Below, one piece after another: positions 19,476 through 21,282 of a stretch of 64,000 nucleotides of DNA. The position numbers and the translations under genes were made by a program. Within the stretch, counting starts at the first letter, position 1. Each line of letters begins with the position of its first letter. Origin of the DNA: Natrinema marinum (lineage in GTDB: Archaea; Halobacteriota; Halobacteria; Halobacteriales; Natrialbaceae); the NCBI RefSeq assembly GCF_024296685.1, contig NZ_CP100763.1, positions 1,364,001-1,428,000 on the forward strand. Direction: 5' to 3'. The notes under the pieces were generated by a model. That model made no database searches, was not told where the DNA came from, and was given only the letters and a program-made list of their open reading frames with translations.

Positions 19476-19550
19476 GGGTTGGTGATCTAGTCCGGTTATG
19501 ATACCTCCTTCACACGGAGGAAGTCGGCAGTTCAAATCTGCCCCAACCCA
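19476..19550 (+). tRNA. tRNA-Val (anticodon CAC)
   Basis: The 75 bases fold into a full cloverleaf. The acceptor stem is GGGTTGG with CCAACCC and discriminator A, the anticodon stem CCTCC/GGAGG carries the loop TTCACAC (anticodon CAC), and the T arm is GGCAG-TTCAAAT-CTGCC. No 3' CCA is encoded, as usual in archaea, although CCA occurs by chance within the acceptor. The T arm and 3' end (19523-19550) are copied downstream. Confidence 0.95.
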
Positions 19551-19603
19551 TTTTTACTGACGCAACGACGAGGAGCAGAGCGACGAGTCTGCGTCAGTAA
19601 AAA
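19551..19603. terminator. Perfect 14-base inverted repeat after tRNA-Val
   Basis: TTTTTACTGACGCA (19551-19564) is exactly inverted at 19590-19603, with a 25-base GA-rich loop. It begins right at the tRNA 3' end, so the T5 run may end tRNA transcription, but the perfect symmetry also fits a small palindromic element. A similar T5/A5-flanked GA-rich structure follows hmgB at 11641-11678. Confidence 0.6.
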
Positions 19604-19605
19604 TG

Positions 19606-19682
19606 GTCGGCAGTTTGAATTAGACGAGACGCGCACAGCGGAGCGAGCACGTCTCGGCGTAGTTCAAATCTGCCCCAACTCA
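19606..19682 (+). repeat. 28-base copy of the tRNA-Val 3' end, split by a 45-base palindromic insert
   Basis: If bases 19616-19660 and one copy of AGTT are removed, the sequence reads as the last 28 bases of tRNA-Val with one mismatch (27 of 28), the size of a typical attachment-site core. The 45-base insert is flanked by AGTT on both sides (19612-19615 and 19661-19664), like a target-site duplication, and its ends are an imperfect inverted repeat (GACGAGACG with CGTCTCGGC). No integrase is nearby. The following 282 bases to 19964 are AT-rich and hold no gene that I can see. Confidence 0.6.
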
Positions 19683-19964
19683 CTCGCTCGCTTCACGCTC
19701 GCGAAACAGCAGACGTGAGCCGGTTGTTCTTAAAGGTCCGCTGCACCATTACTCCACTTTTGTGAAATAAACTGGTTGTGGTCGGTGCCGTCTTGCGATC
19801 ATGTCGAAATAAGTCGTAGTTATTATATTCTCTACCGCTCAATCGTGTTGCCATCAAATCCTTTCAGCACAAAACACGCCGAGTGACAATAGAAAGCCAC
19901 CGAACCGTAATTCTGATACTGTACACCTCTGTTCTCTCATCTGAAAATTTCAGCAATGGACATC

Positions 19965-20207
19965 CTACCAGAACCCTCCGCTTTCCATGTCCTTGATATA
20001 GTTTTGAAATTCCTGTTCTGCTTCTGAGAACGACCGAACCTCAATCGTTTCCGTCATCATGTCAGTAGTAGCATCATCCAGCAATCCTTGTGGCTCGTAG
20101 TCGTCCGTGATGACTCGAGCGCGCAATTCACCACGCTCACAAATGGCGTATACTCCGTCCTCATCCTTCTCTAGTGTCCACTTTCCGTCTCGTCTAACTG
20201 TCCCCAT
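19965..20207 (-). CDS. 80-residue acidic protein, likely partner of the HNH protein
   Basis: This small protein, MGTVRRDGKWTLEKDEDG at its start, is rich in Asp/Glu with a predicted mixed fold and a C-terminal aromatic end (SGGFW). It has no recognised family, membrane segment or metal motif. Its ATG lies 3 bases after the stop of the HNH gene, so the two are surely co-transcribed and probably co-translated. Base composition is lower in GC than the neighbouring core genes, suggesting transfer. Confidence 0.65.
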   Translation of the reverse strand: MGTVRRDGKWTLEKDEDGVYAICERGELRARVITDDYEPQGLLDDATTDMMTETIEVRSFSEAEQEFQNYIKDMESGGFW

Positions 20208-20210
20208 TAT

Positions 20211-20777
20211 TTACACCTCTTGTAGCGCTTCTTGTTGCTTCACCTTATGTTTTAACTCCGATCTGCTGTAGACACCTCGATCGGCCTTTCTGTGGCAATT
20301 CGGACATAGAACGATGAGATTCTTCCGTGTGTTTGGTCCACCTTCCGATCTCGGTTGGATGTGGTGAACTTCCAGTAAGTCGATCTCCTCATCACAATAC
20401 TCACATTGGCCATCTGCTCGATCAAGCCGTAGGTCGTTCTTCAACCGCTCCGGTGTCGGCGGCGTTTTCTCGGTGGTTGTGGCCGAATCAGCAGACGATG
20501 ATTGTATCTCTCCATCAAGTTTGATTTCTGTAAATAACCAGCTGACCGCGGTGTTTAGGCCAGATTCCTTCTTGGCTGCGTTAAATCCCCATACGACATA
20601 GAGGATGCCTGCCACCGAAAGGACGAGTATGATGACCCAGATATAGGTCGCACCGATATCAAACGGGCGTTCGAACACTACGTACCCACCGAAAACGAGG
20701 GAAGCGATAAGGATCACTATCGGAGTGATTTCCCCCTCACCGTCAGTTTGGGATCTACTTCCGCTCACGATTATCAA
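20211..20777 (-). CDS. Membrane-anchored HNH endonuclease-domain protein
   Basis: The 188-residue protein has two membrane helices (about 18-35 and 44-64), a low-complexity linker (about 88-110) and a C-terminal HNH nuclease domain. The zinc ligands are Cys125/Cys128 and Cys158/Cys161, and the catalytic motif is His138-His139, Asn153 and His162 (LEVHHIQPRSEGG, CPNCHRKAD). Both short helices put the nuclease domain on the cytoplasmic side by the positive-inside pattern, though this is not certain. HNH domains cut DNA, and membrane-anchored forms occur in defence and toxin systems. Its position just after tRNA-Val and its lower GC suggest an accessory gene. Confidence 0.85.
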   Translation of the reverse strand: MIIVSGSRSQTDGEGEITPIVILIASLVFGGYVVFERPFDIGATYIWVIILVLSVAGILYVVWGFNAAKKESGLNTAVSWLFTEIKLDGEIQSSSADSATTTEKTPPTPERLKNDLRLDRADGQCEYCDEEIDLLEVHHIQPRSEGGPNTRKNLIVLCPNCHRKADRGVYSRSELKHKVKQQEALQEV

Positions 20778-20973
20778 GATAGACTAACTGAGTCTGGAAT
20801 GATAGTTCTATCGTCGATCTCTTACCAGCGGGAGGCGGGGACAATCGGAGAAGTCTCCCAATCTTATTGTTACAGCACGAAGTGATTCACTGGTTGCCAT
20901 ATCGGGACGGAATTGACTCCCCGCCAGGATTCTCCGAGGACGGGTGCGGTGATCGACGGCAACAGTCGGGGTT

Positions 20974-21282
20974 TCAGGGACCTGGCACTACGGTCTCTGA
21001 CGTGACAGTGAAACAGGTGAGTTCTGCCTCTTCGGCGAGGCAGGGAGCAATCTCGGACTGAAACCGCTCGAGATGCTCACTCGATTCGTGTGACTCGAAG
21101 GCCGCTTCGTCCTCGTACTGTTCGATGATCCGTAGCGTGTGCGGATCCTCGAGGTCGGCTGTGACCCGATAGTCGATGACACCGGGTTCCGCACGCGACC
21201 TGACCGCCATCTCTTCGAGCAGTTCCATCGCCGTGTCTCGGAATGCGGGTTTCACCGGGACTTCGGAGTGTGCAACGATCAT
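20974..21282 (-). CDS. ABM-domain (YgiN-like) putative monooxygenase
   Basis: This 102-residue antibiotic-biosynthesis-monooxygenase fold protein has the pattern of a dimeric ferredoxin-like domain: a strand MIVAHSEVPV, a helix with ELLEEMAVRSRAEPG, then YRVTADLEDPHTLRIIEQYEDEAAFESHESSEH. The family includes cofactor-free oxygenases and quinol oxidases, but also proteins of unknown chemistry. It lies 9 bases after the P450 stop, so it is the second gene of a two-gene operon and may act on or with the P450 product. Confidence 0.82.
   Translation of the reverse strand: MIVAHSEVPVKPAFRDTAMELLEEMAVRSRAEPGVIDYRVTADLEDPHTLRIIEQYEDEAAFESHESSEHLERFQSEIAPCLAEEAELTCFTVTSETVVPGP

Follow-up and report, generated by a model that had tools for sequence, protein, structure and literature searches.

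tRNA hairpin cassettes: a class-wide haloarchaeal family of probable non-autonomous integrative mini-elements at tRNA 3' ends

Introduction

What duplicates the 3' end of a tRNA gene, and what then appears to break the copy apart? The question is raised by a tRNA-Val(CAC) gene of Natrinema marinum and the bases that follow it (positions 19476-19682), in a 64-kb stretch of DNA referred to here as the window (G000:C1:1364001-1428000, where G000 is the window's genome). A first-pass annotation, made from the letters alone, had described a partial copy of the tRNA 3' end with the form of an attachment site, disrupted by a small palindromic, transposon-like insert. Here we show that both palindromes at this locus are parts of a single 132-bp unit with a copy of the tRNA 3' end on either side. 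Units of this kind, which we call tRNA hairpin cassettes, follow many different tRNA genes in nearly all haloarchaea, and they probably constitute a family of integrative mini-elements that are non-autonomous and are moved by SNJ2-type integrases supplied in trans.

Methods

The window's tRNA gene was identified with ARAGORN and scored against Rfam. The distribution search was performed with a covariance model of the second hairpin of the cassette (hp2) at a threshold of E<=1e-5. Descriptions of comparable units were sought in open-licence papers. The loci used for the arm comparison and for the array-decay comparison were in part chosen for matching.

Results and discussion

Anatomy of the cassette at tRNA-Val(CAC)

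The tRNA-Val(CAC) gene (19476-19550, +; 60.5 bits in Rfam) is intact, and its 3' end, from T-loop to discriminator base, forms the putative attachment target. A 22-bp direct repeat of this end, comprising T-loop, 3' T-stem, and 3' acceptor strand, marks both boundaries of the cassette (19551-19682, +), as is characteristic of tRNA-targeted integrative elements. The proximal copy (19529-19550, +) belongs to the gene itself; the distal copy (19661-19682, +) matches tRNA-Val at 21/22 positions, against 14-15/22 for the best 22-mer in a shuffled 64-kb sequence, and the window yielded no third copy of the tRNA-Val 3' end. The attachment-site form proposed for the repeat is borne out.

The cassette comprises a first hairpin (hp1), hp2, and the distal tRNA copy. 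The former (19548-19606, +) is a perfect inverted repeat with a 25-nt loop; it had been recognised earlier at 14 bases, and its arms (19548-19564 and 19590-19606) are in fact 17 bp long. A run of five T directly follows the tRNA with no gap, inside this inverted repeat. The imperfect hairpin hp2 (19604-19677, +) is delineated by its fold, by covariation, and by a covariance-model match; it consists of a left arm (GGCAGTTTGAA), a core common to the family (AGACGAGACGCGCACAGCGGAGCGAGCACGTCTCGGCGT), and a right arm (TTCAAATCTGCC) that is itself part of the 21/22 copy. Folded as single-stranded DNA, the cassette is more stable than 200/200 dinucleotide shuffles (z -6.2).

The numbers of the first-pass annotation are reproducible: GTCGGCAGTT (19606-19615) and CAAATCTGCCCCAACTCA (19665-19682) together match the tRNA-Val 3' end at 27/28 positions once the 45 bases at 19616-19660 (+) and one AGTT are removed, and AGTT does stand on either side of that stretch. 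The 45 bases are not a separate element, however, but the inverted T-loop together with the tip of the ~75-nt hp2, and AGTT is T-arm sequence of the tRNA. At dozens of other tRNA genes the bases of the local tRNA stand in its place, and because the flanks thus follow the local tRNA, a target-site duplication is rejected.

The proposed non-autonomous character and the lack of an integrase nearby both held up: the cassette carries no protein-coding gene, and all ten PF00589 matches of the genome lie outside the window. Since the unit is non-coding and the window is devoid of an integrase, it can be classed as non-autonomous only; the integrase of its own that a tRNA-targeted integrative element would carry is absent.

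The arms follow the local tRNA

The tRNA-Val(CAC) gene and its unit match tRNA-Val(GAC) in the same genome over exactly the tRNA and the unit, with 126/132 identities (95%) between units, 68/75 between tRNAs, and only random-level similarity between flanks. In many haloarchaea the hp2 portion was also matched downstream of genes for tRNA-Ser, Arg, Glu, Gly, His, Leu, and others. Among 52 units whose upstream tRNA could be recognised (14 tRNA types, at loci partly chosen for matching), 18.7/20 right-arm positions agree with the own tRNA and 12.6/20 with other tRNAs, the own tRNA being the best or equal-best match in 48/52. The left arm, consisting of T-stem and inverted T-loop, is less specific, as by itself it identifies the type of its own tRNA in only 26/52 units. 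Where TTCGA replaces TTCAA in the T-loop, the left arm usually shows the corresponding change (UA -> CG at columns 16/67; 8 double changes).

Covariation extends through hp2, in which 85.7% of cells are paired as opposed to 28-45% with slid partners, and 12 pairs have changed on both sides. The inner stem varies in step (CCAG/CTGG, CGAG/CTCG, GAAG/CTTC) and was the only part recovered by RNAalifold on its own. We also considered a tRNA-minihelix mimic, which was rejected given that pairing between the arms weakens beyond the T-stem (columns 7-10).

Two variations on this anatomy were noted. Attachment-site (att) copies at two tRNA-Phe loci (L176 and L177) and one tRNA-Tyr locus (L232) reach back into the anticodon arm, with the hairpin interrupting exactly at the junction of T-stem and T-loop. 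The hairpin loops of some units, such as G000:C1:1810487-1810528 (L244) as well as L022, L145, L243, and L246, contain a nested palindrome (TCGTTCGAAA..TTTCGTGATGACGAAAGA..TCTTTCGAACCACGA); its strict pattern occurs in 4/31 genomes, all of the window's genus.

Distribution

The hp2 model matched 213/242 genomes and 68/74 genera of Halobacteria. In a sample spanning the phylum Halobacteriota all 27 matched genomes were Halobacteria, with 0 matches in the ~164 other genomes. Matches are tightly linked to tRNA genes: in four genomes 47/49 lie within ~300 nt downstream of a same-strand tRNA (8/8 in the window's genome, 18/19 in G058, 15/16 in G079, and 6/6 in G067), and in the window's genome all 8 sense-strand matches at E<1e-4 lie within 60 nt. 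The exception in G079 is 3.1 kb downstream of a same-strand tRNA. That in G058 (G058:C1:2654618-2654694), the only strong match of that genome without a close tRNA, has its nearest upstream same-strand tRNA, in the list used, 31 kb away, and could reflect either the loss of a tRNA or insertion off target.

Clear units follow about ten of the 45 tRNA genes of the window's genome, and decayed ones follow a few more. The exact core pattern was found in 34 stretches of GTDB genomes, all haloarchaeal, and in none of the IMG/VR viral contigs; the unit itself gave no match in phage records, and its single plasmid match falls at the same tRNA-Val locus, carried by a large Natronorubrum replicon.

Arrays change by whole units

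In the arrays inspected, units are 94-161 bp long and stand one to six deep. Adjacent units often have different cores and may alternate, as in A B A C at a tRNA-Leu and A B C B' C' at a tRNA-Ser. The size change at the tRNA locus that the annotation had asked related genomes to show was seen, in exact unit steps, so that its counter-case of one unchanging size does not apply. At tRNA-Val, the difference between two relatives from the window's genus (G004 and G005) is exactly one 110-bp unit, flanked by homologous sequence on both sides. The tRNA-Glu arrays of genus relatives read A (G005), A-B (G004), and B-A (G006), where A units are 93-99% identical, B units 97%, and A and B only ~65%. Tandem slippage fails to give this change of order. 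Occupied and unoccupied states are represented by these members of the family (the 110-bp step and the tRNA-Glu arrays) rather than by the window's own unit. The 'CTCGCTCACTTCGTTCGCG' flank following tRNA-Val, which integrase islands likewise have as their left end, was for that reason set aside as an empty site, and the comparisons were restricted to those with homologous flanks.

Across arrays (again at loci partly chosen for matching), the distal att copy is more decayed in 32 and the proximal one in 4, or 18 versus 4 at the strictest threshold (p=0.004), as expected if new units enter beside the tRNA. Three identical units stand at one tRNA-Phe.

Links to SNJ2-type integrases

Integrase-bearing islands share tRNA-anchored stacks with cassettes in relatives; at the tRNA-Val of G018, islands of 3.3 and 6.9 kb are followed by a cassette. 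Islands of 20.3 kb at tRNA-Arg(TCT) and 15.2 kb at tRNA-Arg(CCT) have a hairpin immediately before the T-loop copy. So does a 4.8-kb integrase island at the tRNA-Tyr of G058, which carries the family core itself. The next unit at that tRNA-Tyr, of 135 bp, matches the island at both its left and its right end, as would an internal-deletion derivative of it, judging from the shared termini. Identity to the integrase of virus SNJ2 is 41% for the integrase of the tRNA-Arg(TCT) island and 48% for that of the tRNA-Tyr island, and SNJ2-type integrases are encoded in the window's genome outside the window.

Weighing the explanations

These observations are most readily accommodated by an integrative mini-element. 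Read from the T-loop of the tRNA, a cassette consists of the tRNA 3' end, hp1, the left arm (T-stem plus inverted T-loop), the core hairpin, and GCGTNG. A tyrosine integrase, made by SNJ2-type islands elsewhere in the genome, would act in trans to recombine the cassette att with the tRNA 3' end; hp2 may be recognised as a folded structure, and both the identity of this recombinase and the crossover point are putative. Insertion would supply a new tRNA 3' end, displacing the older copy downstream, and because each insertion brings such a copy, the tRNA gene would stay intact. Repeated insertion would then build the tandem arrays, cassettes presumably moving by site-specific recombination as opposed to homologous exchange.

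Several points weigh against this proposal. No movement was observed, and as a substrate for a double-stranded reaction a circle of 110-150 bp is very small. Cassette copy number is uncorrelated with the number of SNJ2-type integrases (rho 0.16, p=0.17). The hairpin is absent from some integrase islands, and a comparable one was not seen in the attP stretches inspected from viruses with integrases of this type (Halfgib1, Harhisp1, SNJ2, HHPV4, and LSV-48N). Some single-type arrays, such as that at tRNA-Phe, are equally explained by unequal exchange. Covariation in the T-stem is partly expected, since both arms derive from one tRNA, and the partial choice of loci for matching means that the arm and decay figures characterise the family and are not to be taken as unbiased rates.

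The units might instead be inert relics, left by internal deletion or failed excision of larger integrase islands, themselves immobile and shuffled only by homologous recombination between tRNA 3' ends. The 135-bp tRNA-Tyr unit, with both ends in common with its adjoining 4.8-kb island, fits this explanation, and relic islands with att copies do exist (L142 and L143). Random deletions, however, would not yield a defined length range, an inverted T-loop, and a core common to units of hundreds of genomes, nor do they account for one unit at different tRNA genes and units in different orders, and we regard this origin as unlikely. It is less likely still that the two hairpins function as RNA in the 3' trailer of the pre-tRNA, in termination, processing, or competition with the T-arm, with tandem copies raising dosage. 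Structure preserved by covariation, class-wide conservation, and a T-rich stretch opening many units directly after the tRNA would all be consistent with such a role; yet presence is patchy, most tRNAs of a genome have no unit, and at a given tRNA the number of units, their order, and their core type vary among relatives. An exactly duplicated tRNA 3' end is moreover the signature of integration, and integrase islands have a like hairpin beside att.

The model of the first-pass annotation, a MITE-like palindromic transposon inserted in an old attR, is scarcely credible in light of these data. The insert-like palindrome with AGTT on both sides invites it, and haloarchaea are rich in MITE, PATE, and SMR elements (PMC3119063). 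The core-flanking bases are nonetheless T-arm sequence that varies with the local tRNA, and the tRNA linkage of 47/49 matches leaves no free choice of target. Palindrome copies without target-site duplications, which the annotation had named as telling against it, count against the transposon reading alone and leave the attachment-site reading untouched. The terminal inverted repeats, target-site duplication, and dispersed sites of the MITE/transposon class are not what the cassettes display.

Comparison with known systems

Among tRNA-targeted elements the cassettes are closest to Natrinema virus SNJ2 and its relatives, given the similarity of the integrases of two hairpin-bearing islands to that of SNJ2, but they are geneless and occur in arrays, and the viral attP regions inspected carry no hairpin. 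In behaviour they resemble integrons. Integron cassette arrays are tandem series of distinct units that change order, the youngest beside the anchor, and are bounded by an imperfect hairpin with unpaired residues and a G|TT boundary; their cassettes usually carry an open reading frame (ORF), and attC clusters lacking an integrase are known as CALIN. The arrays described here are likewise tandem, distinct, and reordered, with the youngest unit apparently next to the anchor, and each unit boundary has a covarying imperfect hairpin with unpaired residues and falls at G|TT. Unlike integrons, they are anchored in a tRNA gene, have units without an ORF (94-161 bp), are confined to haloarchaea, and would use a recombinase that is not IntI: instead of an IntI-type integrase beside attI, the related islands encode SNJ2-like integrases, none of them adjacent in the window. 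The likeness, as an analogy, is one of behaviour and not of membership. A stronger version, in which folded single strands of attC-like non-coding cassettes are exchanged at G|TTC by SNJ2-type integrases in an integron-like haloarchaeal system anchored in the tRNA T-arm, with shuffled arrays behind many tRNA genes, is a rather doubtful extension.

The MITEs, PATEs, and SMRs of Haloquadratum are also short, non-coding, non-autonomous haloarchaeal repeats, but they are scattered genome-wide and moved by transposons or unknown means (PMC3119063), whereas cassettes stand at tRNA 3' ends and have tRNA-specific arms. No description of tRNA hairpin cassettes was found in the open-licence papers searched, and such units do not appear in the consulted parts of a review of archaeal tyrosine recombinases (PMC8371274) or of the Haloquadratum mobile-element survey (PMC3119063).

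As mobile elements, the cassettes would add a minimal gene-free class to site-specific recombination, a tyrosine-integrase counterpart of MITEs, and would serve as compact tRNA-specific integration modules. Their arrays, present in most sampled haloarchaeal genomes, would offer a record of insertion history for each tRNA. The family accounts for many 'partial tRNA' repeats in haloarchaea and flags the tRNAs used as integration sites. It also makes testable whether archaeal integrases, like integron integrases, use folded att sites.

Surroundings of the cassette in the window

Directly after the cassette, G+C content falls to 0.45-0.51 (19750-21000), compared with 0.62-0.70 upstream, and this stretch, which includes an HNH endonuclease gene (20211-20777, -), may have been left by an older island. 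An inverted repeat with perfect 12-nt arms (TTAGACGAGACG / CGTCTCGTCTAA; 19620-19631 and 20186-20197) pairs the hp2 core with a site 0.55 kb downstream, possibly by chance.
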